A stretch of DNA of 64,000 nucleotides, taken from IMG/VR virus record IMGVR_UViG_3300010885_037407, positions 1 to 64,000 of that record; one strand, written 5' to 3'. Positions 1,294 through 58,461 of the stretch are shown piece after piece (the stretch's first letter is position 1; every line of letters starts with the position of its first letter). The notes beneath the pieces are model-generated. The model was not told the DNA's origin and did no database searches. It was given only the letters and a program-made list of their open reading frames with translations. Position numbers and translations under genes: made by a program. The DNA is from a virus.

Positions 1294-1325
1294 TAAAGAT
1301 AAGAATAACTATTCAAAGATCCTAA
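1294..1325 (-). promoter_or_regulatory. Promoter of the phage-specific Bacteroidota-type class
   Basis: Reading on the minus strand: TTAG (one mismatch to TTTG), exactly 20 bases, then TATCTTTA. Base 13 of the spacer is G, as in all 13 sites of this class. It lies 22 bases before the start at 1271 and after the stop at 1343. Confidence 0.5.
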
Positions 1326-1342
1326 TCTTTTGCAAAGTATTT

Positions 1343-1606
1343 TTATGATTTACCCCATGGGCCTGAGTATGGAATAGTAATCCTTCTGTCGTTTTGAGTT
1401 GACAAATATTCAGCAATATCATTAATAGCTCTAGCAGCTTTGTTGTTATGCTTAAATAAATCATTGATATCAGTATTTTGAGTATACTGTTCAATTGATA
1501 GCTGTTCAAGTTCGTTTTGAATTTTTTTAATGTGAATAATAGCAGATGCTAGAAATGCTATTGTTACTACAAGCAGTATAGATAATACGACAATAGATAT
1601 GATCAT
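1343..1606 (-). CDS. N-terminally anchored coiled-coil protein (87 aa)
   Basis: Residues 1-26 form a hydrophobic membrane anchor (MIISIVVLSILLVVTIAFLA), followed by a charged heptad-like segment (IKKIQNELEQLSIEQ) that should form a coiled coil facing the cytoplasm or periplasm. A good ribosome binding site (AAGGAA) lies six bases before the ATG, and a promoter-like site 22 bases before it. Function unknown; the build resembles small membrane-tethered phage proteins such as the one at 42184. Confidence 0.6.
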   Translation of the reverse strand: MIISIVVLSILLVVTIAFLASAIIHIKKIQNELEQLSIEQYTQNTDINDLFKHNNKAARAINDIAEYLSTQNDRRITIPYSGPWGKS

Positions 1607-1628
1607 AAATTCCTTTTTATTTATTACA

Positions 1629-1660
1629 TAAAAATAAGGAATTCATTTGAATGAACCAAA
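1629..1660 (-). promoter_or_regulatory. Promoter of the phage-specific Bacteroidota-type class
   Basis: Minus strand: TTTG, 20 bases, TATTTTTA. The spacer holds TTCAAATGAATT with G at position 13 and is itself nearly palindromic (TTCATTCAAATGAA). It precedes the anchored coiled-coil gene starting at 1606. Confidence 0.6.
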
Positions 1661-1675
1661 TAAATTTAATTGAAA

Positions 1676-1825
1676 TTATCTACCTTGACCTCGGTAAGCT
1701 TTTTTGTAATTCTTTCCAGATTTGCTAACAGAGTTTTTCTTTTTAGAATGAACCCCTGGTCTTTTTCTTTTGTTGGAATTTACTTTAGCTGAGGATGATG
1801 TCGTAGATTTTGCTTTTGCTGCCAT
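1676..1825 (-). CDS. Small highly basic protein (49 aa)
   Basis: A 49-codon frame with a very Lys/Arg/Ser-rich composition (NSNKRKRPGVHSKKKNS, then KNYKKAYRGQGR at the C-terminus). Its start is two bases after the stop of the upstream gene. The composition suggests binding to nucleic acid, perhaps inside the capsid or on the nucleoid. I have no firm family assignment. Confidence 0.6.
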   Translation of the reverse strand: MAAKAKSTTSSSAKVNSNKRKRPGVHSKKKNSVSKSGKNYKKAYRGQGR

Positions 1826-1827
1826 TG

Positions 1828-2115
1828 TTATGCGTAGATTGCTAATTCACTTGATTGTAAAACTTTACTATATGTTCCAAGTACATCTTGGTTAGGCATA
1901 ACTGCAATCCAATCATCTCCACGATCTTTTACAATGGCTCCTATTTGCATAGCAGTGATTTTCCATTTTTCTACATCATCAATATGTTGCATTCTTAATT
2001 GACCTGCAGGTCTTCTACCCACAGCATCTTGATAATATAAAGACTCACTGCCATCTTCTTTGATAGCTTTGCGAACCTCTTCTCTAATTAGTTTTCTGAA
2101 CTCAGATACTTTCAT
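1828..2115 (-). CDS. Small protein with shared N-terminal helix (95 aa)
   Basis: The first 18 residues (MKVSEFRKLIREEVRKAI) form an amphipathic charged helix that recurs in the genes at 2115 and 56153 of this window. The rest is a small alpha/beta domain (about residues 45-95, with DRGDDWIAVMPNQ). The start shares one base with the upstream stop (TAATG). The recurring leader may be a sorting or assembly tag; the domain is unassigned. Confidence 0.6.
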   Translation of the reverse strand: MKVSEFRKLIREEVRKAIKEDGSESLYYQDAVGRRPAGQLRMQHIDDVEKWKITAMQIGAIVKDRGDDWIAVMPNQDVLGTYSKVLQSSELAIYA

Positions 2116-2402
2116 TAGAAATTGTATTTTTGTCTTTGTTGTTTGATCATACCCATATACATAGTTATTTGGGTTCTGTCAAGGCCTAATGCCATGATGA
2201 TATCATTTAATATTGAAGCAATAGCTGTTTTATTAAGATTTGGCGTTTTTGCAATTACCGTAACTAAACTATCAACTTGCTTTCGCACAGTAGCACTATA
2301 TTTTATTTGTTCTAAATCATATACTTCATTTACTGCAGTTTTATTTGCCAATTCGTTAGCAATTTCTTCTTTGATAATTTGAATTATTTCTTCTTTTTTC
2401 AT
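2115..2402 (-). CDS. Small helical protein with shared N-terminal helix (95 aa)
   Basis: It begins with a charged helix (MKKEEIIQIIKEEIANEL) of the same type as those at 1828 and 56153. The remainder is predicted all-helical (TVRKQVDSLVTVIAKTPNLN, ALGLDRTQITMYMGM). It is one base coupled to the gene below. No enzyme motif; possibly a structural or scaffold-associated small protein. Confidence 0.6.
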   Translation of the reverse strand: MKKEEIIQIIKEEIANELANKTAVNEVYDLEQIKYSATVRKQVDSLVTVIAKTPNLNKTAIASILNDIIMALGLDRTQITMYMGMIKQQRQKYNF

Positions 2403-2443
2403 AATGTTGTATACTATCTGTGCGAAAGTGAGTTGTTTAGTTA

Positions 2444-2641: not shown

Positions 2642-2662
2642 AAATTTTTGTTTTTATTATTA

Positions 2663-2920: not shown

Positions 2921-2953
2921 ATTCCAATTAATTTATATATAAATATCAGAAAA

Positions 2954-3626: not shown

Positions 3627-3887
3627 TTAATTAACTTCTTTTTTCTCTAAACCAATTTTTACTTTACGAGGTCTACCTCGCTTTCTTTTAGGTGGGTTAT
3701 TAACCAATTCTATTTTTTGTTGCAATATAGAACATTTTTCATATTCTTCTTGTTCCTCAAAGTACATCATAGCTTGTGTAAGCAATTCTACTTGTTGACA
3801 TTGAGTTAATTCATAAGGCCAATCAACATTGTCTGCAGCTAACAGCTCAAAGCCTTCAACCATCACATTGTTAAAATAATTTTTCAT
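3627..3887 (-). CDS. Small protein with C-terminal AT-hook
   Basis: An acidic helical part (residues 1-65, with YFEEQEEYEKCSILQQKIEL reminiscent of UvrB/C-type helical hairpins) is followed by PPKRKRGRPRKVK, a classical AT-hook (RGRPRK core) that binds the minor groove of AT-rich DNA. In this AT-rich genome it may act as a DNA-architecture or transcription factor. The promoter-like site is only four bases from the ATG, so the transcript may be leaderless. Confidence 0.6.
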   Translation of the reverse strand: MKNYFNNVMVEGFELLAADNVDWPYELTQCQQVELLTQAMMYFEEQEEYEKCSILQQKIELVNNPPKRKRGRPRKVKIGLEKKEVN

Positions 3888-3891
3888 AATA

Positions 3892-3923
3892 TAAAGATAA
3901 TAAATTCATTTGGTATTACCAAA
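3892..3923 (-). promoter_or_regulatory. Promoter of the phage-specific class, likely leaderless transcript
   Basis: Minus strand: TTTG, 20 bases (core CCAAATGAATT, G at position 13), TATCTTTA. The -7 element ends four bases before the ATG at 3887, so transcription should begin at or next to the start codon. Confidence 0.6.
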
Positions 3924-11514: not shown

Positions 11515-12123
11515 TTATTTAAGTTTAACAATTATTTGCAATTCGTGGTGATAGAATCTATTAACATTTTCAAACAACCCTAATATTTCAAACCCATTGG
11601 CCATAAACAATTCAGCAAATGAATCTAATGAATCAATAGCTAAATAGTGAGCTCTATGTTCTGTGTTGTTTTCTTTAGGTATTACTACATATAATACTCC
11701 GTCTGGTTCCAATACTTCTTTAATATTAGTAAATACTGAATCTATATCATACATATGCTCAAATACATGAGACATAGATATAAATTTATATGTTTTACCA
11801 AAAGCAGATATTGATTTTTGTGCGTCCTCCAATGCTAAATGTGCACGCACATTTTCAGATAGTTTAGGCCATAAGTTTTCAAATGCAGCAACACTAATAT
11901 CAGTGCCATATACATTTTTATATCCTTTGTCATGCAACTGGCTAACAAAAATACCATTTCTAGTACCAATATCTAAAATATTATCATCAAACCCAATTTG
12001 ATGTTTATCAAATATAGTGTTTATAATATTATTGTAATGTAATGTACTATCATCTATGCCACCTCGATTATTTTGTGCTTCCACATAATCTTCATAGGAT
12101 TTTATTTCTTTTTTAACAATCAT
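11515..12123 (-). CDS. SAM-dependent methyltransferase (class I)
   Basis: Methyltransf_11/12-type Rossmann fold: motif I LDIGTRNGIFVSQL near residues 44-57, GTDIS acidic loop, and a motif like FISMSHVFEHM near 110-120 (the HVFEH post-I pattern of sugar and small-molecule methyltransferases). It probably methylates a sugar in the glycan. It follows its own promoter-class site by 15 bases, the only such site found inside the cluster. Confidence 0.75.
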   Translation of the reverse strand: MIVKKEIKSYEDYVEAQNNRGGIDDSTLHYNNIINTIFDKHQIGFDDNILDIGTRNGIFVSQLHDKGYKNVYGTDISVAAFENLWPKLSENVRAHLALEDAQKSISAFGKTYKFISMSHVFEHMYDIDSVFTNIKEVLEPDGVLYVVIPKENNTEHRAHYLAIDSLDSFAELFMANGFEILGLFENVNRFYHHELQIIVKLK

Positions 12124-12138: not shown

Positions 12139-12170
12139 TTAATATAATGAAATCTTTTATATAAATCAAA
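12139..12170 (-). promoter_or_regulatory. Internal promoter of the glycan cluster
   Basis: Minus strand: TTTG, 20 bases (core TAAAAGATTT, G at position 13), TATATTAA. It sits in one of the few real gaps of the cluster and would drive the genes from 12123 down to 6013. Confidence 0.5.
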
Positions 12171-25422: not shown

Positions 25423-25454
25423 TATAAATATGTAATTCTTTAATAAACACGCAT
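25423..25454 (-). promoter_or_regulatory. Promoter of the long glycan unit
   Basis: Minus strand: 20-base spacer with core TTAAAGAATTA (G at position 13) before TATTTATA. The upstream element reads ATGC, a poor match to TTTG, so an activator acting at the spacer may be essential. It lies just after the stop at 25456. Confidence 0.4.
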
Positions 25455-27035: not shown

Positions 27036-27067
27036 TAAAGATAAGAAATTCTATTGTAGAAACCAAA
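27036..27067 (-). promoter_or_regulatory. Promoter of the phage-specific Bacteroidota-type class
   Basis: Minus strand: TTTG, 20 bases (core ACAATAGAATT, G at position 13), TATCTTTA. It is 26 bases before the nuclease start at 27009. Confidence 0.6.
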
Positions 27068-34543: not shown

Positions 34544-34575
34544 TAAATATAAGAAATTCTTATGAAGATTCCAAA
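34544..34575 (-). promoter_or_regulatory. Promoter of the dpdA-groEL-clamp unit
   Basis: Minus strand: TTTG, 20 bases (core TTCATAAGAATT, G at position 13), TATATTTA. It lies 18 bases before the transglycosylase start and after the stop of the radical SAM gene. Confidence 0.65.
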
Positions 34576-34576: not shown

Positions 34577-35596
34577 TTATTTATATTGCTCTGGTATACC
34601 ATACCATGATTTACTTATTCTCATATCAGGACCGCAGTTACATCTTAATTTGCCACAAATAAATGCTTTATTATTTAGTTTAACTCTTAAATCATTATTT
34701 TTTACTATATTACCAAAATTTCCTGACCAATTAGGTCCACAATGAGCTCCTGCAATACTTCCATCCCATTTCACAGATAAATTTGCTTTGCCCGCGTCAC
34801 ATAAATAACCTTTGAAATAATTCGTACCTTCTGACACTAATTTTTGTTGTTGAAATTTTTCTTCAGTGCCGTCTTCATATACGACCATGGTCGATTGTAC
34901 TTTATGTTCTGGATCATATCCATCTAAACCTCTATCAAATCTTTGATAGGTATTATCTCTTAAATAAGCTAACTGTTCTTCTGTGTATAAACCTGAGTAT
35001 TCACCTAAAAATAGTTTATCTCCTTTATTTGAAAAATTGCTTGAGTTTGATTTAGATAATACTCCTTTGTATGTAATTGGTATATTAATACTCTTAAAAT
35101 GTTCTACTGCCTCTAGAGTCCTTTCCCAATGCTCTGGGTCCATTACTACACCAACACCTATCATAGCATTTTTCTTAACTGCAATGTCTATAATTTGTGA
35201 AAATTTATTAAATTTAGAATACTTTGAATGAAAGCTTAATGAGGTATAATTTATATCTTCTAAAATCTCTTCCCATACAGAAAGAGCAGCACTTCCATTA
35301 CTAACCAATGTAATTTTAAAATTATACTCTTTGAAGAATTTAACTAACTTTTCTATACCTTTATACAAAGTAGGCTCTCCTCCTGTTAATGTTATATATT
35401 TACTAGGGTAGTTTTCTATTTCTGGATTATCTAAAAATAATTGCCTAAAGAATTTAAAGTATACTTCTACATCTAATACTGGCGTTGACCCGTCATGTAA
35501 TTGCTTTGGACAATATTCACACTTATAGTTACATAAATTTGTAACGCTTAGCGTAATATTAAATTCATCGCTAGTAATTGATTTAATTTTATTCAT
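34577..35596 (-). CDS. Radical SAM enzyme, SPASM-like C-terminus
   Basis: CNYKCEYC at residues 20-27 is the canonical CX3CX2C cluster motif; LTGGEPTLY near 69-77 is the SAM-binding GGE motif. The C-terminal third has extra Cys residues (YLCDAG, GAHCGP, FICGKLRCNC), suggesting auxiliary iron-sulfur clusters as in SPASM/twitch enzymes that modify peptides or sugars. The substrate is unknown. Its place between a glycosyltransferase and the DNA transglycosylase is compatible with either glycan or base modification. Confidence 0.7.
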   Translation of the reverse strand: MNKIKSITSDEFNITLSVTNLCNYKCEYCPKQLHDGSTPVLDVEVYFKFFRQLFLDNPEIENYPSKYITLTGGEPTLYKGIEKLVKFFKEYNFKITLVSNGSAALSVWEEILEDINYTSLSFHSKYSKFNKFSQIIDIAVKKNAMIGVGVVMDPEHWERTLEAVEHFKSINIPITYKGVLSKSNSSNFSNKGDKLFLGEYSGLYTEEQLAYLRDNTYQRFDRGLDGYDPEHKVQSTMVVYEDGTEEKFQQQKLVSEGTNYFKGYLCDAGKANLSVKWDGSIAGAHCGPNWSGNFGNIVKNNDLRVKLNNKAFICGKLRCNCGPDMRISKSWYGIPEQYK

Positions 35597-35607
35597 ACTT
35601 TAATATA

Positions 35608-36609
35608 TTAATTTCTTTTATTAGATACAAATATTTGATTGATTAATTTTTCTGAATCAAAATAATTTTCAAATAGCAATTCTTGAGTTAGTTTAATCAA
35701 TGGTCTATATGAATCATAGTTTCCAACTAACTCTTTTACTTTGCTAGTCATATCAGGAGCAAATTTACTATAATTGAAAATTGAAGATGTCCATTCTGCA
35801 GGATATCTAAATTCTTCTGGCACTAACTCTCTCAACCCTTCAATGTCTGGTATTAATGGAATTGTTCCTAACAAAATACATTCATAAATTTCAACTCCTA
35901 TATTTGGATTTGTATAAGGAAGTAATGATAATTTTGCTCTAGACAATTGCCTTAATAGTTGATGTCTTTCCAATGGCACATGCTCTTGAGCGAAGACAAT
36001 TTGGATACCTTTATGCACTCTTATAAAGTCGTACACAATAGCTTCTTGTAACTGAGTATACTGATTCCATGGGAAAACGATTAAATTCTGTTTATTGAAT
36101 AAACCATTGTACAATGACATTTCTAAATCTAAATAGTCTAAAGGAAACGGCATTATATGCAGCTTGTCCTCTGTGACTTTTTGAAGACTTTTGAACTTAT
36201 CTGCATAGAATTTTGATATGAAGAAGTTCTTATCTAAACAATCAAAACTTCCTTTTTCATAAAGCTTTCTCCAAGTTATTTCTGTCGTTGGTTTGTATTC
36301 TTTGTCATAATCAATATAACATCCATTGGTCCAAAATCCTAATAACTCTACATCTACTTGATTGGTTTCTGCCCAATGCTTAACATATCTTGTTGCTGAT
36401 GACCAAGCATTGGTAAATATAAATTTATCTTCATTAGATATTGATTTGGATTCAAACAATGCTTTGATATCTGCTATGTCTACAACTTCAACAACTTTGC
36501 AATCTTCATCTCCTTTTGCTTCTATATATCCTTGTAATAAAGAAGCTAAATGAGTCTCCCATGAATCGTCTTTGGCAATTAATGGGTCTACTACTACATA
36601 AACTGTCAT
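35608..36609 (-). CDS. GT4-like GT-B glycosyltransferase
   Basis: The C-terminal donor domain carries NIGVEIYECILLGTIPLIP near 250-268 (E-x7-type donor motif) and LSLLPYTNP. The N-terminal domain begins TVYVVVDPLIAKDD with a nonstandard first loop. It overlaps the preceding small gene by one base. One of three glycosyltransferases outside the main cluster. Confidence 0.65.
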   Translation of the reverse strand: MTVYVVVDPLIAKDDSWETHLASLLQGYIEAKGDEDCKVVEVVDIADIKALFESKSISNEDKFIFTNAWSSATRYVKHWAETNQVDVELLGFWTNGCYIDYDKEYKPTTEITWRKLYEKGSFDCLDKNFFISKFYADKFKSLQKVTEDKLHIMPFPLDYLDLEMSLYNGLFNKQNLIVFPWNQYTQLQEAIVYDFIRVHKGIQIVFAQEHVPLERHQLLRQLSRAKLSLLPYTNPNIGVEIYECILLGTIPLIPDIEGLRELVPEEFRYPAEWTSSIFNYSKFAPDMTSKVKELVGNYDSYRPLIKLTQELLFENYFDSEKLINQIFVSNKRN

Positions 36610-37150: not shown

Positions 37151-39727
37151 TTAGAAGCTGAAGAAATCAGCCATATTATCATTTTTAGGTATTCTGCCAT
37201 ATCTCAAAGCATCATAAAATCCTTGCAATTTATTCTCTAATGACGCTGTGAATATTCTATCATAATCAATGTATTGAGTTATGAAGTCAATAATTTCTTT
37301 AGGGTCATCAAAACCTTTTACTGCACAACTATCCAATCCAAATGGGTTTGCTTTTAAATAAGTCCACTTAATCTTTTCTCCATCTAATATAGGTTGAGAA
37401 GAAGTTATCTTATAGTACAACATTAAATCATTGTAGTTTAAAGCTGACTTTGTGTGTGCTGGAGTACCTTTAACTCTATCACCAAACATATTACTTTTGT
37501 CTGATTTTTTAGTTTTAACTTTGTACTTTTTCAATTCTTTAACACCTGTCGGAAACATAATATCAAACATTGGCTTTGATTTCATTTCTTCTCTAAATGC
37601 TAACACCTTATCATCAATTTGCTTTTGAGGAGATATGTTTAAAATATCAATTAAGATACCTGACATAAACTCTCTAAATGCTTTTGGGAAATTGGATCTT
37701 ACAACATCCATTCCTTTTACATCTAATTTCCATTCTTTTGCACCATTAGTCATTTGTGATATTAAGATGCCTTTCTCTGATATAATCTTTTGAGCATATC
37801 GTTTTTTGGCTATCCATAATCCAGACTCAGCTACATATTCTTGCTTGATGTTTAAGAAGTGAGTATCAGAGTTTAAGAAATGCTTGGCAAATGAATCCCA
37901 AGAATCATTGATATACTTTTCAACTACTTGAGAAGTTTTATAAGTAACATCAATTTTTTCTTGTTTAGTCATTGACTTATTCATTTTACTTTCCATTAAA
38001 TCAATAATTGGTTTAGCAGAAAAGTAATTTGAATCAGTATCCACATAAATTACATACTCTTTATCGACACCAGTTTGTTTAGTAAACCATTCATTACCTT
38101 TCATCATAGCATGCTTGATAACCTGTTGCCCTGTCAATGTAATAGACTCAGCATTATCTAAATCATGAAATCTAAAACCTGGAGCTCCTAATGCACCATA
38201 CAAAGAGTTATTTACAATCTTCATAGTATGCTGTCTAGAGTCAAAGAATTTAGACATATCAGCATTTCCTTCTTTACCATATTTTTTAGCAAGACCTCTA
38301 TACTCCTCTCTTTCATTCATCCAAGTTGCTAGAATAGAAGGAATTAGTCCACCTTTGTCTGCATTGTAAACTACTCCAATTGAAGATACGGTACATTTAT
38401 TATCTAATAGCCATTGACGAAATTCAATGTCTGGAATTAAATAATGTTTTGAGCCTGACTTCAACTTCATGTTTAAGTCTGCTGTCTTACCTGACCAAAA
38501 TGCTTCTTTCACTGCATCCCAATTCTCTACTCTACCAAATTTAGTTTCTGGAGATATGTTTAAAGTTCTAATGATAGAAGGATATAGAGATGCCATATCC
38601 TCATCAAATACCCATTCATAAACTCCTGGTATTGGATCTTTTACATAGGCTCCTGCAAAGTCATTAGATATTGCTTCTTCTCCTGCAGTCACAGCTTCAC
38701 GAAGCTTTTTATTAGGAGCTACAATATCTAAACGTTTCATATAGGTTATACATGCACCATCTAAATATCTAGTTGGAAAATATACATCTTCATAAGGCAC
38801 ATGACCTTTGTGACATATACCTCGAGCCAATGAAAGGAATTTAAGTTTTTCATCTAATTCCAATACCAATGTAACGTCATTAACGTTATACTCAATAAAC
38901 TTCTCAGGGTCTGTTTTATATAAATGATCTAGATTTCCTTCATATTCAATTTTACCTTTACCTAATTCCTTTTTACAAATATTGTCCAATGAATAAGATG
39001 ACTCTTCTGAATATGTAAATAATTTATAAAGTGCCATGTAATCTAAACAAGACACTCCCATAATTCTATATCGATTTCTGTGCTGTAAATAAATTACTTC
39101 ATTTACTGGAGAAAGCATATCAGCAAATTGCTTTCCGTGAACTTGAGTTATTCTATTATACAAATAAGGAATATCAAAAAAGTCAATGTTCCATCCTGTT
39201 ATAATTGTAGGTTTGATCTCAAGATAGTGAGTAAGGAATCTAGTAATTAATTCATCTTCAGTAGTTACTACTTCTAAAATTAAATCCTTATCTGTATATG
39301 GTTTTAAGTTTTTATCCTTATCTACAATAATTGCTACTGATTGATTCCCTGCTCTGTCATGAAATGCGATTGAAGTCATTGGTTGCCAAGCTTCGTCTGC
39401 CGATGAAAAACCTCCTACTGTTGAAACCTCAATATCTATAAATAATTCTTTATGACCCACTGAAGGATCATCAGATTCAAAATACATATCTATTAAGGTT
39501 CTAACTTCTGGATTGATATCAGACTCATATATCTGACCTTTTTGAATATCATGCTCATCCCAGTTAGTAACTTTCTCTACTTTGTTACCATCTAATGCAA
39601 CACATCTTCCATGTGCACTTTTCTTATAAGCATATTTTTTAAATGGAAATTGTAAATGTCCTAACTTGTCGTCCCAAACATGTACTAAATTTTTATTCTT
39701 TTGATATGCTATATTTTGATATGCCAT
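37151..39727 (-). CDS. DNA polymerase, family B (T4 gp43-like)
   Basis: 858 residues with both activities visible. 3'-5' exonuclease: DIE at 98-100, GWNIDFFDIPYL near 178-189, and YNVNDVTLVL near 280-289. Polymerase: motif A DMASLYPSI at 377-385, motif B KIVNNSLYGALG at 503-514, and motif C YVDTDS at 561-566 with Asp563 and Asp565. This is the replicative polymerase of the clamp system coded nearby. It starts directly after the glycosyltransferase gene at 39728. Confidence 0.95.
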   Translation of the reverse strand: MAYQNIAYQKNKNLVHVWDDKLGHLQFPFKKYAYKKSAHGRCVALDGNKVEKVTNWDEHDIQKGQIYESDINPEVRTLIDMYFESDDPSVGHKELFIDIEVSTVGGFSSADEAWQPMTSIAFHDRAGNQSVAIIVDKDKNLKPYTDKDLILEVVTTEDELITRFLTHYLEIKPTIITGWNIDFFDIPYLYNRITQVHGKQFADMLSPVNEVIYLQHRNRYRIMGVSCLDYMALYKLFTYSEESSYSLDNICKKELGKGKIEYEGNLDHLYKTDPEKFIEYNVNDVTLVLELDEKLKFLSLARGICHKGHVPYEDVYFPTRYLDGACITYMKRLDIVAPNKKLREAVTAGEEAISNDFAGAYVKDPIPGVYEWVFDEDMASLYPSIIRTLNISPETKFGRVENWDAVKEAFWSGKTADLNMKLKSGSKHYLIPDIEFRQWLLDNKCTVSSIGVVYNADKGGLIPSILATWMNEREEYRGLAKKYGKEGNADMSKFFDSRQHTMKIVNNSLYGALGAPGFRFHDLDNAESITLTGQQVIKHAMMKGNEWFTKQTGVDKEYVIYVDTDSNYFSAKPIIDLMESKMNKSMTKQEKIDVTYKTSQVVEKYINDSWDSFAKHFLNSDTHFLNIKQEYVAESGLWIAKKRYAQKIISEKGILISQMTNGAKEWKLDVKGMDVVRSNFPKAFREFMSGILIDILNISPQKQIDDKVLAFREEMKSKPMFDIMFPTGVKELKKYKVKTKKSDKSNMFGDRVKGTPAHTKSALNYNDLMLYYKITSSQPILDGEKIKWTYLKANPFGLDSCAVKGFDDPKEIIDFITQYIDYDRIFTASLENKLQGFYDALRYGRIPKNDNMADFFSF

Positions 39728-40732
39728 CTATTTACTTGTTTTAATAACGTCAATCATTATTTGTGCATTGTTATCCCATTTTTCTGTCCAAGACATTGGA
39801 ACTACTAAACCACCTTCATTGAATTTTGTTTCAATTTCATATACTGATTCATATACATTTTTAGCAGGTACCATTTCAGGGCAACAAGCTCTATTCGGAA
39901 CTAAAATTTCACAACCAAAATAAATTGCTTCTTGAATAGTGTAGCCAAACGTTTCTTGATAAGCAGTTGACAAATACCATTTTGCTCTTTTCATTAAATC
40001 AAAATACTCTGCTTTTGTCAATGAATGTCTATACTCAATATTTTTAGGAAGTTTACCTAAATCTTTTGCTGGGCCTGAAGAAGTAATAATAATTTTCTTA
40101 TCTGTGAATTTTGCAAATTCTATTAATTCAGCAATTCCTTTTTCTTTGGAAAATCTATGTGGCCAAATAACAAAATCTTCTTTGGCTCCTTCGTTTGGAA
40201 ATTGCTTCATATATTCCAAGTCCCATACTAATCCTGTTGTGTAAACAGTTGCTGGATTCAAATTGAAATGGTTACATACATTTTCTTTATGGTCATCACT
40301 GCCTACAAAAATTCCATCACATATAAAGTGATATCCTGCTTCTGAAGCATCTGCCCAATATGATAATTGTTGTACAAAGTCTGTCTTATCAGCTCTACCT
40401 GCATAATTAATTCCAAATACTTTTACATCCATGTCTTGTAACTCAGACATATATTTAATCATTTCAATTCCTGGAAAGAATATATCTCCAATTAAAAATG
40501 AATCTCCGTTTTCTACTTTGCCTTCATTGAATAAATCTGCAACCATTTGAAGTTGGGCTGCTTTGAATTTACATGTATTGACAATGTCTAGAAATTGACC
40601 TCTTTTAATTTCAGTATCAATTTCTACTTTTGGATACAATGAGATATCTACTTTTGGATAGATAGCTGCATTCATCATTTCGGTATATCTTTGTGGTAAT
40701 TCTTCTAATGGAAGATAAATAATTTTGCTCAT
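39728..40732 (-). CDS. GT4 glycosyltransferase
   Basis: FVIWPHRFSKEKGIAELIEF near 188-207 is the first strand and helix of the donor domain (HRFSKEKG-type loop). AYQETFGYTIQEAIYFGCEIL near 263-283 is the E-x7-E donor motif. Placed directly before the DNA polymerase gene in the same unit, which could hint at DNA glycosylation but is only positional. Confidence 0.75.
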   Translation of the reverse strand: MSKIIYLPLEELPQRYTEMMNAAIYPKVDISLYPKVEIDTEIKRGQFLDIVNTCKFKAAQLQMVADLFNEGKVENGDSFLIGDIFFPGIEMIKYMSELQDMDVKVFGINYAGRADKTDFVQQLSYWADASEAGYHFICDGIFVGSDDHKENVCNHFNLNPATVYTTGLVWDLEYMKQFPNEGAKEDFVIWPHRFSKEKGIAELIEFAKFTDKKIIITSSGPAKDLGKLPKNIEYRHSLTKAEYFDLMKRAKWYLSTAYQETFGYTIQEAIYFGCEILVPNRACCPEMVPAKNVYESVYEIETKFNEGGLVVPMSWTEKWDNNAQIMIDVIKTSK

Positions 40733-40750: not shown

Positions 40751-40782
40751 ATAATATAAGTAATTCTATTGAAAGAAACTAG
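40751..40782 (-). promoter_or_regulatory. Promoter of the DNA polymerase unit
   Basis: Minus strand: CTAG in place of TTTG, 20 bases (core TCAATAGAATTA, G at position 13), TATATTAT. Eighteen bases before the start at 40732. Confidence 0.45.
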
Positions 40783-42579: not shown

Positions 42580-42597
42580 AGCTAGCACAGATAATTA
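42580..42597. repeat. Transcript 5' arm of inverted repeat B
   Basis: AGCTAGCACAGATAATTA, overlapping the stop codon of folE by three bases. With 42161-42177 it encloses one gene, about 0.44 kb. Confidence 0.6.
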
Positions 42598-43236
42598 CTT
42601 TTTAGCTTTTAAATAATCTATAAATTTATAAAATTCATTTCTAGTAGCTGGATCTTCTCTGAAAGCTCCTGAAAGTTTACTTGTAATCATAGTTGAGTCA
42701 TGTCTAACTCCTCTAACACAAGCACACATATGATTTGCTTCAATTACTACTGCTACTCCTTTATTTCCTTCACAAGTTGCATTTATAAATGATGCAATTT
42801 GTTCAGTTAAATTTTCTTGCACTTGAGGACGTCTTGCGAAATACTCTACAATTCTATTTAATTTAGACAATCCAATTACCTTACCATCTGGAGAAGGAAT
42901 ATAAGCTACGTGAGCAAATCCAATAAATGGTAAATGGTGATGTGAACAAAATGATTTCATATCAATATTACCTTGAAATACTACACCATCATACTTATCT
43001 AAATTATCAAATGCTGTGATTTTAGGAGCATCTACAAAACAACCTTGAGCTAAATCATTTACAAAGGCTTTTGCTACACGTCTAGGCGTATCAGATGAAT
43101 TAGGGTCATTTTCCCAATCAATTCCTAATGCTGTCATGTAATTACCATAATGAGTAGCAGCATGTTCAATCATTGCCAACTTCTCTTCTTCTGTTCTTGG
43201 AATAGAAGAATTTGCATATTTCAATAACTCTGTCAT
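42595..43236 (-). CDS. folE: GTP cyclohydrolase I
   Basis: Catalyses GTP to 7,8-dihydroneopterin triphosphate, the first step of the 7-deazaguanine pathway. [19 protein letters not shown] near 118-136 has the zinc-binding Cys and His; [20 protein letters not shown] near 144-163 is the classic signature; [15 protein letters not shown] near 183 gives the second zinc Cys. Full length (213 aa). It follows groES by one base. Confidence 0.9.
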
Positions 43237-43764: not shown

Positions 43765-44050
43765 CTAATTTAATTTCATCTTCTTCTTTAACTATAGGTA
43801 TAAAGTTTTCTTCATCTTCATCAGTCAGACTAGTGCCTGATAATGTAAGTAACATTCTTTCTTTAATTTCTGAATTTACTGCTGCGTCCATTAACTTAAT
43901 TAAGTTAAGTGGATCTTTACCAAAGATATTAAAGAATCTTTCTAAACTCTCGTCTAATTGGAAACGAGTATCGCCTTGAGCCCAGCCTTTCTCGAAATCA
44001 AGATCAAGTACAAAGGCATTTTTCAATATTTTATCTAAATCTAAACGCAT
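43754..44050 (-). CDS. Acidic hypothetical protein (98 aa)
   Basis: Helical acidic protein beginning MRLDLDKILKNAFVLDLDFE and ending in a run of Asp/Glu residues. It overlaps queE by ten bases and the next gene by eleven. No family recognised. Confidence 0.5.
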   Translation of the reverse strand: MRLDLDKILKNAFVLDLDFEKGWAQGDTRFQLDESLERFFNIFGKDPLNLIKLMDAAVNSEIKERMLLTLSGTSLTDEDEENFIPIVKEEDEIKLDDK

Positions 44051-44814
44051 CTTTCTGTATCAAAAGCAATTATATGAGGTCTTCCTGTAAATCTAAATCC
44101 ATTATCTCTTACCCAATCCATTACTTTAGGATAGGTTTTCAATAGTGCTACTCTAGTATCACCTGCCGGCATAAAATAAACTTTATCTTCTGGAATGTCC
44201 ATCATATGAATAAATCCTAAAATTTCTTCTAATATTGATTCTTCTTCACCATCCCATACAGGTTTGATTTGATAATCTAAATGATACACAATTGATTTAG
44301 CTATAGCATCATAATTCAATCTTAACTTGTTATGCTGCTTGACCATCTTGTCGTCAACGATGTCGCCGCTCGGAGTGCTAACACCTGGTTTCGGAATACT
44401 ATTTGAAAACTTAGGGCTAATGCTAAGTAAATCAATCGGAAAGTCTGTTTCCAAGAAATGACTTCCTTCAGTTTCCATAGTAATAAAAATTCCTCTTTCA
44501 TTTGCTAAATGTGTTAATTCGTTTACTAATGCCGGATGCATTGTAGGAGATCCTCCTGTTAGCATCATTTCTGTGATGTGCGGATTTGCATCATACATAG
44601 CTACAATGTCATTGAAGCTAAATGTACCTTTTTCAGGATGAATAGAAGTGTACCAAGAATCACACCAACCACCATCTCCAAACCAACATCTGTGAGTACA
44701 GCCTGTCGTTCTAATTACTATAGTAGGATAACCTGCTCGAGAACCTTCTCCTTGAACTGCAGTGTATATTTCTACTATAGGAAGTGTTTTGTTATAATCT
44801 TCTATTCTTTTCAT
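44041..44814 (-). CDS. queE: 7-carboxy-7-deazaguanine synthase (QueE), unusual Cys spacing
   Basis: Radical SAM enzyme converting carboxytetrahydropterin to 7-carboxy-7-deazaguanine (CDG). YTAVQGEGSRAGYPTIVIRT at 17-36 is the QueE start; MLTGGSPTMHP holds the SAM-binding GG motif. The cluster Cys are C39, C43 and C51 in CTHRCWFGDGGWC, that is CX3CX7C instead of the usual CX3CX2C, so five residues are inserted within the cluster loop. Length 257 aa is in range. It overlaps genes on both sides. Confidence 0.8.
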   Translation of the reverse strand: MKRIEDYNKTLPIVEIYTAVQGEGSRAGYPTIVIRTTGCTHRCWFGDGGWCDSWYTSIHPEKGTFSFNDIVAMYDANPHITEMMLTGGSPTMHPALVNELTHLANERGIFITMETEGSHFLETDFPIDLLSISPKFSNSIPKPGVSTPSGDIVDDKMVKQHNKLRLNYDAIAKSIVYHLDYQIKPVWDGEEESILEEILGFIHMMDIPEDKVYFMPAGDTRVALLKTYPKVMDWVRDNGFRFTGRPHIIAFDTERCV

Positions 44815-44980: not shown

Positions 44981-45463
44981 TTATCCTCGATATGAATTGC
45001 ATATCTGATATGACGCTGCATTTCTTTCATGCTCATACACTTCTACTTTTACTGCTGATACTCTGCCTTCAGTCTCTTCTTTAAGAAAATTATTAATTTT
45101 ATTGAAAAGATACTCTGCAAATCTTTCACAGCCTGTTTCTGGAATTATTCTTAATTGAATAATACCTTCCGTGTTCATTTGCTTAAATAAAGGCAAATAA
45201 GGATCGTCTTCTGCTATGACAGTAGTATGATCTAATAAATTTTCAAAAAACTCTTTAGGAGTAAATCCGTCAATTTTATTGGTAGCTCTTTTCATTCCGC
45301 CAAAGTCCCATACCCAGTTTCTTTCATCTAGTTCACCTTCAAACCATACTCTAAAAGATATAGCATATCCGTGAAGAAACTTACAATGCGTGCCATCTGC
45401 TTTCCATTGACGAAAACAAGTAGAGTAGCCGTCAAATAACTTTGTTGATTGAAATTTTTTCAT
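44981..45463 (-). CDS. queD: 6-carboxy-tetrahydropterin synthase (QueD), altered metal ligands
   Basis: Converts dihydroneopterin triphosphate to 6-carboxy-5,6,7,8-tetrahydropterin. GTHCKFLHGYAISF at 24-37 holds the catalytic Cys27 and the His31 ligand; the C-terminal VYEHERNAASY is the E-x2-based end. Compared with the standard HX10+HGH zinc site, His16 appears as Cys16 (YSTCF) and the last His of HGH as Tyr33. A phage-type variant of the metal site is likely. The promoter is four bases from the ATG. Confidence 0.8.
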   Translation of the reverse strand: MKKFQSTKLFDGYSTCFRQWKADGTHCKFLHGYAISFRVWFEGELDERNWVWDFGGMKRATNKIDGFTPKEFFENLLDHTTVIAEDDPYLPLFKQMNTEGIIQLRIIPETGCERFAEYLFNKINNFLKEETEGRVSAVKVEVYEHERNAASYQICNSYRG

Positions 45464-45467: not shown

Positions 45468-45499
45468 TAAATATAAGAATTCCTTTTGAATTAAACAAG
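45468..45499 (-). promoter_or_regulatory. Promoter of the queD-folE unit, likely leaderless transcript
   Basis: Minus strand: CTTG, 20 bases (core TTCAAAAGGAATT, G at position 13), TATATTTA, ending four bases before the queD ATG at 45463. It overlaps the last codons of the gene at 45491. Confidence 0.6.
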
Positions 45500-45817
45500 G
45501 ATATTTAATTTACGAAGTGTATTAATTGCAATCTTCTCACCTAAAGACAAGAATTCTTCTTGTTTGTTAGCTGACAAAGCAATGTCAATTAATTGTTGAA
45601 CCCAGGCCTTTTGTTCAGGAGTAACTTTTTTATCGGTTAAGTAATCGCCAAGTTTGTCTAATTGAAGGAAGTTTTCTAAAACATGTTTTGGTTCTGGAGT
45701 TACTACATCCACAAATGATCCAAGGTTGTTGTTTTTAGGTTGTCTAGGTACTCTGGTAGTTTTAGTCTCTAATTTCGTAACTCCAGGAACACCTTTTTTT
45801 ATTACTGCTGTTGCCAT
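45491..45817 (-). CDS. Hypothetical protein (108 aa)
   Basis: A basic, probably disordered N-terminal third (KLETKTTRVPRQPKNNN) precedes a helical domain (NFLQLDKLGDYLTDKKVTPE, WVQQLIDIALSANKQEEFL). No motif. Its own promoter-class site lies 25 bases upstream, making it a short transcription unit of its own. Confidence 0.55.
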   Translation of the reverse strand: MATAVIKKGVPGVTKLETKTTRVPRQPKNNNLGSFVDVVTPEPKHVLENFLQLDKLGDYLTDKKVTPEQKAWVQQLIDIALSANKQEEFLSLGEKIAINTLRKLNILV

Positions 45818-45842: not shown

Positions 45843-45874
45843 TAAATATAGTAATTTCTTTTGATATTACCAAA
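45843..45874 (-). promoter_or_regulatory. Promoter of the phage-specific Bacteroidota-type class
   Basis: Minus strand: TTTG, 20 bases (core TATCAAAAGAAATT, G at position 13), TATATTTA. One of the best matches of the set; before the start at 45817. Confidence 0.65.
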
Positions 45875-51560: not shown

Positions 51561-52919
51561 TTATCCTAAATCATTTGACACTTCTTTGTATTTTTGTAAT
51601 AAACTTTTTCTTAATAATTCCTCTCCAGTTTGCATTTGTTTATTAGTATCTTTACCTTGAACAGAGGTCTCTTCATATATATGAATTTGCCCATTGCTCA
51701 TATTCATTTTCGACGGAAATGTAATTCCGTCAGGACCAAATCGATTTTTAATAATATGAAATCTACCTGTACCTGCTATTTTATCAGTTACCTTTCTTGA
51801 TAATGAAAGCACAAAATCTGCAATCATTACTTTGGAATAAGACTCTGATATCTTTCCTGCTTCAATAACATCATCTTCTAATGCACTTCTATTTGCTTGA
51901 GATGCTGTAAATAATGGAACTTCATACTCTCCTGCTACCCCACGTAAATCTTCATAAATAGATTCTAATTCATGACGCATTTCTTTTCTAGCTACTGCAC
52001 CTCTTAATAAATCTGCATAATCGACAATTAATAAATCTGGTTTTTTGCCAATTAAAATCATTTTTTCAATGTGAGCTCTAATGGTTGAGCATGAAGCTGT
52101 TTTGGTAGGATAGTATTTAATTACTAAATTACCTTTTAATTTTTCAACTGCAGCAGTAACTTCATCAATATTGTATTTTAAGTTTTGTGCTGCGATACCT
52201 GTTAGCACAGCATCATATCGCTGACCCACATAAGCATCATTTAACTCCAATGTATAATGTACTACATTTAATCCTGCTTTAATTGCATGAGCTCCTATGT
52301 TAATAAGACCCCATGATTTACCAATACCTGCTGGAGCTACGAATACAACTAATTCTCCTTTACCAAATCCTCCGTCTGCTAAATCATTAATAACAGGCCA
52401 TGGAGTAGGTATACATGCTCTTACATTATCCATATACCTTTCAGCAACAGATTCATTATATTCATGTCCTACTTCTTTATCAGCTCCTGCTTTCATTGCA
52501 GTATCAATAGCAGATTTAATTTCATCATATTGACCTTTTCGAAGAAGTTCAACTGAATCTAAAATTGCTCTTTTAATACATTGGTTCCTGCAGAAGTCGA
52601 CTGTTTCTAACTTAACAAATTCTAAATCATTGGATTCTAAATATCGATATGAATCTTTTAAAGTTTCAATAATAGATGTTTTGAGTACATCTCTATCAAC
52701 GTCATTCATTTTAATTTTAAATACATCTAGAGTTGGTGCACAAGCATACTCACTGAAATATTTAACTATAGTCTCTACAATCCATTGGTTGGCTTCTGAT
52801 TCAAAAAAGTCTGGCAATAAGATGTCAGCTACTTGTTGTAAAAATGCTTTGTCTGTTAACAAAGATGATACAATCTTAACTTGAAACCCGTGACCAAAAT
52901 TACTTAACTTATCAGACAT
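51561..52919 (-). CDS. Replicative DNA helicase (DnaB/T4 gp41-like)
   Basis: An N-terminal helical domain is followed by a RecA-like ATPase: Walker A APAGIGKSWG at 195-204 with Lys201, Walker B LLIVDYADLL near 299, and the TASQANRSAL motif near 340 (H3-type motor motif). It unwinds DNA ahead of the polymerase. No separate primase is seen in this window. Promoter-class site 15 bases upstream. Confidence 0.9.
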   Translation of the reverse strand: MSDKLSNFGHGFQVKIVSSLLTDKAFLQQVADILLPDFFESEANQWIVETIVKYFSEYACAPTLDVFKIKMNDVDRDVLKTSIIETLKDSYRYLESNDLEFVKLETVDFCRNQCIKRAILDSVELLRKGQYDEIKSAIDTAMKAGADKEVGHEYNESVAERYMDNVRACIPTPWPVINDLADGGFGKGELVVFVAPAGIGKSWGLINIGAHAIKAGLNVVHYTLELNDAYVGQRYDAVLTGIAAQNLKYNIDEVTAAVEKLKGNLVIKYYPTKTASCSTIRAHIEKMILIGKKPDLLIVDYADLLRGAVARKEMRHELESIYEDLRGVAGEYEVPLFTASQANRSALEDDVIEAGKISESYSKVMIADFVLSLSRKVTDKIAGTGRFHIIKNRFGPDGITFPSKMNMSNGQIHIYEETSVQGKDTNKQMQTGEELLRKSLLQKYKEVSNDLG

Positions 52920-52934: not shown

Positions 52935-52966
52935 TAAATATATTATATTCATTTGTAACTAACAAT
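52935..52966 (-). promoter_or_regulatory. Promoter of the helicase-nrdBA unit
   Basis: Minus strand: ATTG, 20 bases (core TACAAATGAATA, G at position 13), TATATTTA. It touches the stop of the exonuclease gene. Confidence 0.55.
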
Positions 52967-55227: not shown

Positions 55228-56010
55228 CTATTGATTAAATAAGTTGTCGAATGCTGAAGCTACATCATCTACTTTTGCAACTGGAGCTGCATCAGCGATT
55301 CCTGCTTGATTTGCATTAACTGCTTTTGGAGCAGGGGCAGCACTTTCTTCGGCAGCATTTTCAGGATCTAACCAATTGTGTAACAATTTAGTCATTTCAT
55401 CATATGTGTACTCTTTGAAAATGTCTGTCGCTTTAGGTTGGTTACCTAACTTCTCTAATACACCTTTATCAGATGTTACAGGAGTTTGATTAGGTTTAAC
55501 GCGAATAGATGTTTCTGGGTATGATTTACCAGTTTGGTCAGCAGCTTTGAACTCTACAGATACATCACGTCCAGCAACTGGATCTGTGATATCTCCATAA
55601 TCAGGATCTGAAATAAATCCTAAAAGTTCTTGATATACTGATTTACCGAATCCCCAAAACTTAACTCCTTCAGATTCTTTACCTCTTACAATAATAGGCA
55701 CATAACAACGCATTGTTGGCTCTAATTTCTTACCAGCTTTCCAATCGTCCGAATTTCCTGTTGATTTAAGTTTGTCTCCAAATTCCATAATTGGGTCAGG
55801 GCGACCAAATGACATTGGAGATAGTACAGATTTTCCACCAAAGTTATAATGGAAATAAAGTTCAATAAATGGGTTCTCTCTGTTGTGTTGATAAGGTACA
55901 ATACGAACTACTTGAGTGCCTGGTTCAGGCTTCCATAAATTGTTTTGTTTTTGTGTTACATTTTGTAACGAGTTTAATTTTTGCTTGATAGCGTCTAAAT
56001 TAATAGCCAT
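55228..56010 (-). CDS. Single-stranded DNA-binding protein (T4 gp32-like)
   Basis: 260 residues with a gp32-like layout: a short basic N-terminus (LDAIKQKLNSLQNVTQ), an OB-type core containing TQVVRIVPYQHNRENPF and YVPIIVRGKESEG, and a long Ala/Pro-rich linker ending in the acidic tip DDVASAFDNLFNQ, which recruits partner proteins. The zinc site of T4 gp32 is not visible. It has the longest 5' leader of the window (103 bases). Confidence 0.75.
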   Translation of the reverse strand: MAINLDAIKQKLNSLQNVTQKQNNLWKPEPGTQVVRIVPYQHNRENPFIELYFHYNFGGKSVLSPMSFGRPDPIMEFGDKLKSTGNSDDWKAGKKLEPTMRCYVPIIVRGKESEGVKFWGFGKSVYQELLGFISDPDYGDITDPVAGRDVSVEFKAADQTGKSYPETSIRVKPNQTPVTSDKGVLEKLGNQPKATDIFKEYTYDEMTKLLHNWLDPENAAEESAAPAPKAVNANQAGIADAAPVAKVDDVASAFDNLFNQ

Positions 56011-56113
56011 TTTGTTTAATTTTATTTGTTAATGAATAATTAATAATTAGCAATTGCTGATGTAACTCGAGTGTCTAGAATGTTCTACTTACATTTCAAT
56101 AACTAATATAACT
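56011..56113 (-). promoter_or_regulatory. Long structured leader of the ssb gene
   Basis: 103 bases between promoter and ATG, where other units have 4-28. It contains small self-complementary elements on the minus strand (TAGAACATTCTA near 56076, AGCAATTGCT near 56049, TAATTATTAATTA near 56036) in AT-rich surroundings. T4 gene 32 is autoregulated by binding its own leader; this could be a parallel. Confidence 0.4.
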
Positions 56114-56145
56114 TAAATATAAGGTAATCTTTTGATAGTACCTAA
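56114..56145 (-). promoter_or_regulatory. Promoter of the ssb-recA-exonuclease unit
   Basis: Minus strand: TTAG, 20 bases (core TATCAAAAGATTA, G at position 13), TATATTTA. Confidence 0.6.
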
Positions 56146-56152
56146 TATTTTT

Positions 56153-56641
56153 TTATTTATTGTTTTTAGCATCTGTATAAACGGTTTTTAGCCATTTAAC
56201 GAATCCCATTTTTTCGTCTTGTTTGATATTTGGATATTCTTTGAAGAACTCCATTGCAAATTGATTGAATGTTGAAGCGTCTTTTGCCATTTGGTCAACA
56301 TCACTCATTGCAGATTCACTTAACTTACTTTCTTTAATTCCTAATATTGCATTTAATTCAGAAAGAACTAATTTAAGTTTGGTTGGGCTCAAAGTTCTTA
56401 AATATGCTAATCTATTATCCATTCCTGAAGATCCTTCATATCCCGTAGCTATCTTAACAGTTAATGGATTGAATTGACTTTGAGTTTTGTGCATAACATT
56501 TAAAATCTTTCTCTTATTAGCTTCATTGCCTTCAATTGTATTATGAATTTTACTAGCTAAATCTTTTTGTATTGTAGAAGCTTCATTTAATGCTTTTTTT
56601 ACTTCCTCTTTGATAAGAGCTTTGAATTCAGATGCTTTCAT
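56153..56641 (-). CDS. Helical protein with shared N-terminal helix (162 aa)
   Basis: MKASEFKALIKEEVKKALNE is the third copy of the leader seen at 1828 and 2115. The rest is mostly helical with SSGMDNRLAYLRTLSPTKLK and a C-terminal VKWLKTVYTDA. Coupled to the gene above with a one-base gap. It lies next to recombination genes; function unknown. Confidence 0.55.
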   Translation of the reverse strand: MKASEFKALIKEEVKKALNEASTIQKDLASKIHNTIEGNEANKRKILNVMHKTQSQFNPLTVKIATGYEGSSGMDNRLAYLRTLSPTKLKLVLSELNAILGIKESKLSESAMSDVDQMAKDASTFNQFAMEFFKEYPNIKQDEKMGFVKWLKTVYTDAKNNK

Positions 56642-56642
56642 A

Positions 56643-57026
56643 TTATAAATTTATGATTTGATATACTTTGGTATGAAGTATTTTTAATTCGTTATTTGAT
56701 GTTACTAGTAGTGAATTAGAATATTTTGTCCAATCCACAGAAAATTTAGTATCTAGCACTCCATTGTTTTCTTGACGAATTAACGCATTCAATGAATTGA
56801 TAGTATACATAGTGTTAGTTTCTTTTTTACGATGTACTAACATTGCTGCAGGTAATTGTTTTCTTGTATTACCTTTCTCTACATTGAAACTACATATAAG
56901 CTCCGGGCTGTCTTCAATAGATAATATGAAAATTCTTTTATACACAACCTCATAAGTTTTATCGATCATTTCTATTGAATTATCGATTAAGTCCTCCGTA
57001 GAGAAAACGCAGATTAATTGTATCAA
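56643..57026 (-). CDS. Conserved-looking phage protein, uncertain start (127 aa)
   Basis: The frame opens with TTG at 57026 (IQLICVFSTEDLIDNS); the first in-frame ATG is 19 codons later. The segment RKKETNTMYTINSLNALIRQE followed by GVLDTKFSVDW is familiar from hypothetical proteins of T4-like phages, and homology memory favours the longer TTG start. A different 25-codon frame from ATG 57055 overlaps this start. Function unknown. Confidence 0.55.
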   Translation of the reverse strand: MIQLICVFSTEDLIDNSIEMIDKTYEVVYKRIFILSIEDSPELICSFNVEKGNTRKQLPAAMLVHRKKETNTMYTINSLNALIRQENNGVLDTKFSVDWTKYSNSLLVTSNNELKILHTKVYQIINL

Positions 57027-57069
57027 AGCTTGTATATATTATAAGTGATTTTGTCATATATAAATATCG

Positions 57070-58422
57070 TTAAAACTTTTTTTCTGCTAGAATCATATTA
57101 TGATAATCTGGACCTATCTCTAATTTTGTTGGAAACTTACCTTTTTGTTCTAATTCTTCTTTTATTATTTTTAATACTTTTGCACCATCTCTTTTGTCAA
57201 AATCAAACAAAAACGAATCATAGGTATATAATATCAACTTGGAAGAGTAGTTTGAAATACGTTGGAGTATATTATGAATAACGGCCATGTTTCTTTCGGT
57301 TTCATAAGACTGTAAAACATAGTTTAAAAGCTTTGCTGCATTCATATCACTGAAAAATGATTTGAACAATTTTCTTCCAAACATTGTTGTTTCAATATAA
57401 CCATCTTGTTTATATTGATTCCAAAGAAGCTGAGTATATTCATGTACTTTGGCAAAGAAAGGTATTTCCAAATACTCCTCTCCAATTCCTCCATATAATT
57501 GTTTAAATGAAATTGACTTTGTTTCAGAATATTCTGCAGGTGTTAAAGTCTCTTTACCAAAATAAAATTTACCTAAATATTCATGCACAGAACAATCTGC
57601 TGGAAATTGATAATCGACTAACTCTGCTAGTAGTCTTAAGTGATATGCATCATAATCAAAAGAAAGCATAAATCCATTTTCTCCAAATCTAGATACAAAA
57701 GATGCTCTTGCTCCATTGTCTTTGTTTAAAGCAGCATAGTTAATACCACCAAATCGATTTGAAGGTCTTCCTGTTGTAGTATAGATGTTATATTCTGTAT
57801 AAGCAAAGTTATCATATAAAGGTGCTTCATTGAATTTTGTTTTGAATTGTTCATAGTTTGTAAATAAACCATTTTGTTCTATTTGATAAAGTGAATCCAA
57901 TATCAAATTGTTGTATTTGTCAAATGCTGGATCTTCTTTGAAATAATCATATACATCTAAAAATCTTTGAGTAATAGATTGTGACTTTTCAATGTGCTTG
58001 GTAATTGGAATAATAGTATTTAAGTTGCTAAACTTTCCAAAATTTCTAGTAAAGAAATCATGTGCTGGTGTATCAAAGTCATCTTCAATAGGTTGATTCC
58101 TATGAAAATATTCTACCATATTAATATCAATTATATTGTCATGATCAAGAAACCGTTTAAATCGCTTCTTGCCATACACAAATAATTTTCTATCTAAAGG
58201 GAATTGTTTAAGAAGCTCTTCTGATAATGGTAAGCCTTCAGTATGGTTGAAAACTATCATAACTTCTTTGTCTAAATTAACAACATATATATAAATTACT
58301 GAAATTGAATCTGTATATACCGGTCTTTCTCCATTACAGTATGTTGGAACTACAATCCAATCATATGCGCTGCTTTGGTCTAGGAAGGAATCAAATTCTA
58401 ATTTGGTCTCTATTATTTTCAT
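57070..58422 (-). CDS. Family A DNA polymerase-like protein
   Basis: The C-terminal half shows family A polymerase motifs in order: TGRPSNRFGGINY at 217-229, motif A SFDYDAYHLRLLAEL at 254-268 (Asp256 metal ligand), the O-helix KSISFKQLYGG at 302-312, GYIETTMFGRKLF at 341-353, Gln371, and motif C YDS at 401-403 with Asp402 but Ser in place of the usual Glu. The N-terminal 190 residues lack clear exonuclease motifs. It may act in repair, gap filling or priming beside the family B replicase, or be reduced in activity. Confidence 0.75.
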   Translation of the reverse strand: MKIIETKLEFDSFLDQSSAYDWIVVPTYCNGERPVYTDSISVIYIYVVNLDKEVMIVFNHTEGLPLSEELLKQFPLDRKLFVYGKKRFKRFLDHDNIIDINMVEYFHRNQPIEDDFDTPAHDFFTRNFGKFSNLNTIIPITKHIEKSQSITQRFLDVYDYFKEDPAFDKYNNLILDSLYQIEQNGLFTNYEQFKTKFNEAPLYDNFAYTEYNIYTTTGRPSNRFGGINYAALNKDNGARASFVSRFGENGFMLSFDYDAYHLRLLAELVDYQFPADCSVHEYLGKFYFGKETLTPAEYSETKSISFKQLYGGIGEEYLEIPFFAKVHEYTQLLWNQYKQDGYIETTMFGRKLFKSFFSDMNAAKLLNYVLQSYETERNMAVIHNILQRISNYSSKLILYTYDSFLFDFDKRDGAKVLKIIKEELEQKGKFPTKLEIGPDYHNMILAEKKF

Positions 58423-58429
58423 ATCCTAG

Positions 58430-58461
58430 ACAATATAAGTAATTCTTTTAATCTATACAAA
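58430..58461 (-). promoter_or_regulatory. Promoter of the family A polymerase unit
   Basis: Minus strand: TTTG, 20 bases (core GATTAAAAGAATTA, G at position 13), TATATTGT, seven bases before the ATG at 58422. It overlaps the end of the upstream gene. Confidence 0.6.

Follow-up and report, generated by a model that had tools for sequence, protein, structure and literature searches.

The stretch of DNA considered here (hereafter the window) comprises 64,000 nucleotides, positions 1 to 64,000 of the IMG/VR virus record IMGVR_UViG_3300010885_037407. It belongs to a T4-like myovirus of the Bacteroidota, and it carries a class of predicted promoters in which a short sequence element occupies a fixed place between the two promoter boxes. 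The whole record, G000, is a virus fragment of 80.7 kb (80,739 bases) whose genes lie almost without exception on the minus strand. Its gp23-like capsid protein is 57% identical to the counterpart in Flavobacterium phage vB_FspM_immuto (hereafter immuto), and it also encodes a sheath, a tail-tube protein, PhoH, clamp loader subunits, a DnaB-like helicase, UvsX, a single-stranded DNA-binding protein (SSB), ribonucleotide reductase, GroEL/ES and queuosine-type enzymes. Kinship with immuto, together with the promoter type, points to a host among the Bacteroidota. A second IMG/VR contig, G001 (181,588 bases), is collinear with much of G000.

The promoters in question are built on a core in which TTTG, at about -36 to -33, is followed after exactly 20 bases by TATATTTA at -12 to -5. 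In some of them the spacer contains the element C8-AAWW-G13-AA, numbered by spacer position and lying at about -25 to -18. Sites with the element are designated M and those without it E, after their presumed temporal classes; the core is common to both groups. A preliminary description of the window had listed 13 sites as one class. Eleven of them do form a class, to which a site at 35600, overlooked at that time, has to be added, and the consensus of these 12 members is TTTGGTannTnCAAWWGAATnnCT-TATATTTA. The members are given below with their ranks in a leave-one-out (LOO) scan, for which a position weight matrix (PWM) was built from 12 of the 13 listed sites and tested on the 13th, both strands of the 80.7-kb record being scanned.

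1629..1660, minus strand, M-class promoter before open reading frame (ORF) 1343-1606 (87 aa); G13 at 1644; TTTG-GTTCATTCAAATGAATTCCT-TATTTTTA; LOO rank 4
3892..3923, minus strand, M-class promoter before ORF 3627-3887; G13 at 3907; TTTG-GTAATACCAAATGAATTTAT-TATCTTTA; LOO rank 9
12139..12170, minus strand, M-class promoter before methyltransferase 11515-12123 (Pfam), then glycan genes; G13 at 12154; LOO rank 14
27036..27067, minus strand, M-class promoter before PD-(D/E)XK nuclease 26056-27009 (Pfam PDDEXK_1); G13 at 27051; LOO rank 3
34544..34575, minus strand, M-class promoter before ORF 33230-34525, upstream of GroEL and gp45/gp44-type genes; G13 at 34559; LOO rank 8
35600..35631, minus strand, M-class promoter (the added site) before radical-SAM ORF 34577-35596; G13 at 35615; TTTG-TATCTAATAAAAGAAATTAA-TATATTAA; PWM score 24.7
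40751..40782, minus strand, M-class promoter before glycosyltransferase 39728-40732, upstream of the DNA polymerase gene 37151-39727; G13 at 40766; LOO rank 12
45468..45499, minus strand, M-class promoter before QueD-like gene 44981-45463; G13 at 45483; LOO rank 9
45843..45874, minus strand, M-class promoter before ORF 45491-45817; G13 at 45858; LOO rank 8
52935..52966, minus strand, M-class promoter before DnaB/gp41-like helicase 51561-52919; G13 at 52950; LOO rank 14
56114..56145, minus strand, M-class promoter about 100 nt before the SSB gene (ssb) 55228-56010; G13 at 56129; LOO rank 7
58430..58461, minus strand, M-class promoter before DNA-polymerase-A-like ORF 57070-58422; G13 at 58445; LOO rank 15

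The motif is real. As read from the sequence, all 13 places listed at the outset are as they were said to be, with TTTG exact in seven and degenerate in six, a gap of exactly 20 bases, and G at spacer position 13 in every case. In the LOO scan, 12 of the 13 rank 3rd to 15th, with no better-scoring place on the plus strand. Above 15 bits the full PWM finds 15 sites on the minus strand and none on the plus strand, the expectation being 0.1 per dinucleotide-shuffled strand and 0.01 in shuffled intergenic DNA; for the latter the expected number of core patterns is 1.1, falling to 0.1 when G13 is included. When pairs of a TTG/TAG-type box and TAHHTTTA were counted in the intergenic DNA of G000 at spacings of 16-24, ten fell at spacing 20 and 0-2 at each other spacing. 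The same intergenic peak recurs in the 181-kb relative (22 pairs) and in immuto (35 pairs, with smaller extra peaks at 16 and 23); contig G002 and Microcystis phage Mel-JY01, which are less closely related, do not show it. Together with the placement of the boxes, this peak bears out the assignment to a -33/-7 layout of the Bacteroidota sigma-A type.

Other parts of the preliminary description need to be qualified. The string AAWWGAATT, in which G13 was said mostly to lie, is present letter for letter in only five of the 13 sites (1629, 3892, 27036, 40751 and 58430). Taken alone it is unspecific, with 47 coding as against five intergenic copies (0.30 and 0.73 per kb per strand, respectively), but it is specific when in register with both boxes. 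The exact pattern AAAAGAATTNCTTATATTTA was found in 35 viral contigs, a number of limited use, since so AT-rich a pattern also arises by chance. As for the statement that each site precedes a gene that begins a unit, most of them lie immediately upstream of a gene start; the site at 56114 stands some way off from ssb, however, and that at 1294 lies 127 nt from the nearest small ORF. The latter and the site at 25423, where 42 plus-strand places score better in the LOO scan, are the two that do not belong to the class:

25423..25454, minus strand, not a member; late-type motif CATATTTAT, starting at 25424; LOO score 0.1 bits, rank 75
1294..1325, minus strand, resembles the E type; G8, TTATCTTTA, and downstream TATATAGAAA in common with a site at 69145, which is without G13

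The G13 at 1294 is probably coincidental.

The distinction between M and E sites also emerges when the spacer plays no part in the selection. Intergenic sites of G000 and G001, picked by the two boxes only, split into two groups: in the M group, spacers have C or another base at position 8 and G at 13 (CAAAAG, CAATAG, CATTAG or CAAATG, then AAT), whereas in the other group G is frequent at 8 and never found at 13. Many E-group members in G001 precede small unknown genes at 155-165 kb and have in common a downstream TGTATAGACAT. Across the lineage, G13 is present in 58 of 125 non-redundant intergenic core sites as compared with 83 of 511 coding or wrong-strand controls. It is accompanied by C8 in 36 of the 58 sites that carry it and in 7 of the 67 that do not (Fisher p 1e-9, an indicative value, as related sequences remain in the sample). 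The G that had been called invariant is therefore not so among core promoters, being confined to those 58 lineage sites and gained or lost at orthologous promoters.

Such gains and losses can be followed gene by gene. In most close relatives the helicase promoter retains its -7 box, G13 and the 20-base register, including cases in which no more than TTTT is left of the -33 box. G13 is kept at the nuclease promoter in three of three orthologues (G001, L027, L017), at the QueD promoter in three of five (L101, L038 and L061, as opposed to L069 and L078), and at the glycosyltransferase promoter in two of three (G001 and L097; lost in L078). It is also present at G001 site 38042, which precedes a homologue of the 33230-34525 gene. 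At the ssb promoter the core is kept in most close relatives and G13 in some only. An element that is constrained, yet gained and lost at single promoters, is best regarded as an auxiliary element outside the core.

The genes that follow M sites encode the helicase, SSB, a polymerase, the nuclease, queuosine-type enzymes and glycosyltransferases. By its gene content (replication, recombination, nucleotide and sugar genes, never the virion block) the M class has the appearance of a middle class. Of the 12 M sites, none falls within the virion block (59-80.7 kb), as against 12 of 18 sites of a looser form of a late motif (hypergeometric p about 2e-4). In the sense strand, 3.4 kb of intergenic DNA contain 16 copies of this motif, [GC]ATATTTAT, and 77 kb of coding DNA a single copy. 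G001 and immuto likewise have it ahead of structural genes. Read on the opposite strand, TATTTATA gives the T4 late consensus TATAAATA (PMC1524935). Late-motif places in the window are 2939, 5049, 6004, 25424, 47242 and 57060, and many more lie at 66906-79086 in record coordinates.

The comparison with host promoters was made on 80 Bacteroidota genome loci, of which those below 45% G+C were used, yielding 296 intergenic TAHHTTTG sites. The M promoters resemble the promoters of Bacteroidota sigma-A (sigma-ABfr; TTTG / TAnnTTTG) in having two boxes about 20 bases apart and a -7 box at -12 to -5. They differ from them in the spacer element, which is missing from the host sites sampled: G stands at -20 in 11% of these, and AAWWGAA in register in 1 of 296, so that a feature of host promoters was rejected as an account of the element. 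They differ also in the -7 box, which ends in A in 93% of M sites, whereas in Flavobacterium johnsoniae a G at -5 is nearly invariant (PMC6847099). TAHHTTTA is in intergenic excess in the host loci too, and A at -5 may therefore be tolerated; given the lack of that G, the core is nevertheless better termed sigma-A-like than a proven sigma-A promoter. Immuto (Immutovirus) shares the exact 20-base spacing and TATATTTA at about 40 sites, many of them in a small-gene region, but has no G13 in 47 core sites and no G at -20 in 64 sites, its -33 box is mostly GTTG, and many of its spacers hold terminator-like hairpins. Since immuto is without G13, and G002 and Mel-JY01 without the 20-base peak, the idea that the class is shared by all T4-like relatives was discarded.

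The hairpins of immuto (MW353175, L045-L048) are an observation in their own right. With stems of 9-13 pairs and, in many cases, a T-run behind them, they overlap the -33 box and fill the 20-base spacer just before TATATTTA (for instance at 22068, 37294, 69566, 104390, 130542 and 160362), and such fused terminator-promoters account for about one third of 38 non-redundant core sites.

Transcription in F. johnsoniae starts 4-5 nt past the -7 element (PMC6847099), and M promoters would thus be expected to use the host polymerase with its primary sigma factor. Such a host-type RNA polymerase would recognise the core and begin transcription 4-5 nt past the -7 box, in which case the element at -25 to -18 would fall between the contacts of sigma region 2 and region 4. 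As the element is missing from hosts and immuto, its simplest reader would be a phage protein made early. The explanation that we favour, and to which we would give slightly better than an even chance, is that a phage-encoded factor reads the spacer element and activates the predicted promoters at the middle stage. This factor, a small DNA-binding protein made early, would contact the element beside the sigma-bearing polymerase and would raise, as opposed to repress, the M promoters in the middle stage, while virion genes would use the third motif, [GC]ATATTTAT. The element has a partial dyad (T6 and C8 against G13 and A15, centre -22.5) of a form that a small dimer could bind, and in some relatives the sequence at the dyad place is a perfect inverted repeat (GTAATTTC-AAAA-GAAATTAC); in the relative L050, the site matching 45843 reads GTAATTTCAAAAGAAATTAC, again a perfect inverted repeat. 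A dimer operator was also sought by covariation over the whole class; the column pairs gave only z = 2.3 at centre -22.5, one of several centres tested, which is no more than a weak hint.

An activator of this kind had already been suggested by analogy with T4 MotA. The likeness to T4 middle promoters lies in a T4-like phage placing a phage-specific element on a host-type promoter upstream of replication, recombination and nucleotide genes. The geometry, on the other hand, is different: in T4 the MotA box (TGCTTtA), with its centre at -30, takes the place of the -35 element (PMC2988021), whereas the M class keeps TTTG at -36 to -33 and bears its element between two intact boxes. The records searched yielded no MotA or AsiA domain either. 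The analogy thus suits the class of genes served but not the geometry. A phage protein that reads the element is a reasonable assumption, given that the element is phage-specific and tied to a middle-type gene set.

In MerR-type activation, too, the activator site lies between the two promoter boxes, and MerR corrects an over-long spacer. The position of the putative activator site is alike; 20 bases, however, is the normal spacer length here, with and without the element, and no MerR-like protein was seen.

Several points weigh against a phage activator. No reader protein came to light: sequence searches with MotA, AsiA and sigma-region-4 Pfam models were empty, those with PF09158, PF09114 and PF09010 in six records including the 181-kb relative, where distant homologues could be missed; a protein search with T4 gp55 was likewise empty and, having no positive control, shows little; and Pfam and PHROG scans of the early-region proteins of G001 gave neither a helix-turn-helix factor nor any other reader candidate. 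At the polA-like promoter most relatives keep the core, and only 2 of 15 have G13; the loss of G13 at some orthologous promoters where the core stays implies that the element modulates and is not required. Finally, the record is only a fragment of an uncultured phage, whose presumed host is deduced from gene kinship. A DksA/TraR-like zinc-finger protein (PHROG 54), encoded at 150723-151292 in G001 and at 60988-61395 in immuto, where it is annotated as DnaK suppressor protein, is a possible polymerase-binding regulator.

Among the alternatives, the one that survives best, unlikely as we hold it to be, dispenses with a phage factor: RNA polymerase itself would read the element, through sigma region 2.5/3.0, the beta' zipper or A-tract bending in phase with the -7 box, and M promoters would be strong or differently timed ones. 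The fixed register to the -7 box speaks for it, as do the gain and loss of the element at single promoters, the A-richness of the sampled host -7 sites at -22 to -18, and the overlap with the motif centred at -18, one of two AT-rich motifs (the other at -28) of F. johnsoniae promoters (PMC6847099). It has to contend, however, with a G at -20 that is unenriched in hosts, with the near absence of the element from host and immuto sites, and with the fact that an invariant G is no requirement for curvature. An operator for a phage repressor that would shut M promoters off, for instance at the onset of late transcription, appears improbable. Polymerase would have no access to a dimer-type TnC-N4-GnA site with its centre at -22.5, and C8 and G13 do co-occur; but the dyad is weak, as the covariation result shows, and operators are not usually held to one exact register at every promoter.

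Still less credence is given to the element being the remnant of a hairpin, that is, of the upstream unit's terminator fused to the promoter as in immuto, where the spacers hold long terminator-like stems. Site 16917 of L050 and some ssb promoters of relatives contain perfect inverted repeats with differing arms. On average, however, M-class stems are only slightly above the null (11.3 versus 10.0) and without a T-run, and 22 of the 58 G13 sites have kept this base despite the loss of C8. A terminator remnant, clear in immuto, was consequently rejected for the M class. That chance or composition produced the pattern from examples hand-picked by eye in an AT-rich phage, in whose coding DNA AAWWGAATT alone is frequent, is next to impossible, being refuted for 12 of the 13 sites by LOO ranks, strand asymmetry, shuffles, exact spacing and orthologous retention.

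Some features of the transcripts and genes downstream deserve mention. The distance from the -7 box to the ATG is 4 nt at 3892, 3 nt at 35600 and 4 nt at 45468, and leaderless messages are predicted there as well as at the helicase promoters of relatives such as L055-L068, in which the helicase N-terminus is conserved at a start codon 3-4 nt past the -7 box; in F. psychrophilum, leaderless mRNAs make up 5.5% (PMC9723704). The ssb gene, by comparison, has a leader of about 100 nt from promoter to start (about 56011-56113), the sequence just past the -7 box being similar in many relatives, and this leader could be a site of autogenous translational control as in T4 gene 32. A GTP cyclohydrolase (42595-43236), a radical-SAM protein (44041-44814, with a blast match at immuto QueE) and the QueD-like protein (44981-45463) suggest 7-deazaguanine modification of the phage DNA. 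Lastly, several small proteins share an N-terminus of the type MKxxEFKKLIREEVxxxL and then diverge, namely those at 1828-2115, 2115-2402 and 56153-56641 of the window and, in record coordinates, at 66420-66884, 68663-69022, 69188-69436, 69471-69839 and 70513-70875; they are found in G001 too, and the shared stretch is perhaps a prohead- or virion-targeting N-terminus.

Taken as a whole, the M sites constitute a genuine promoter class, middle-like in gene content, that is not a class of MotA promoters and is previously undescribed as far as open-access papers show: a full-text literature search, restricted to these, returned no paper describing it. Transcription control in large Bacteroidota phages has been little explored, and the T4 middle mode appears poorly conserved, MotA promoters being reported from T4, RB69 and 44RR alone among the phages of PMC1524935. 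Against this background, a middle class of its own kind, marked by a defined element, offers a concrete handle for finding its reader, and M promoters could serve as regulated promoters in Bacteroidota, in which those of E. coli do not function. In a wider sense, and only as a tentative proposal that we rate at rather less than an even chance, T4-like phages of Bacteroidota may have a middle-mode system of their own, unrelated to MotA/AsiA, in which a spacer-bound phage activator would act beside an intact sigma-A contact on promoters whose phage -7 box, TATATTTA, departs from that of the host at -5 and from which partly leaderless messages would be made.

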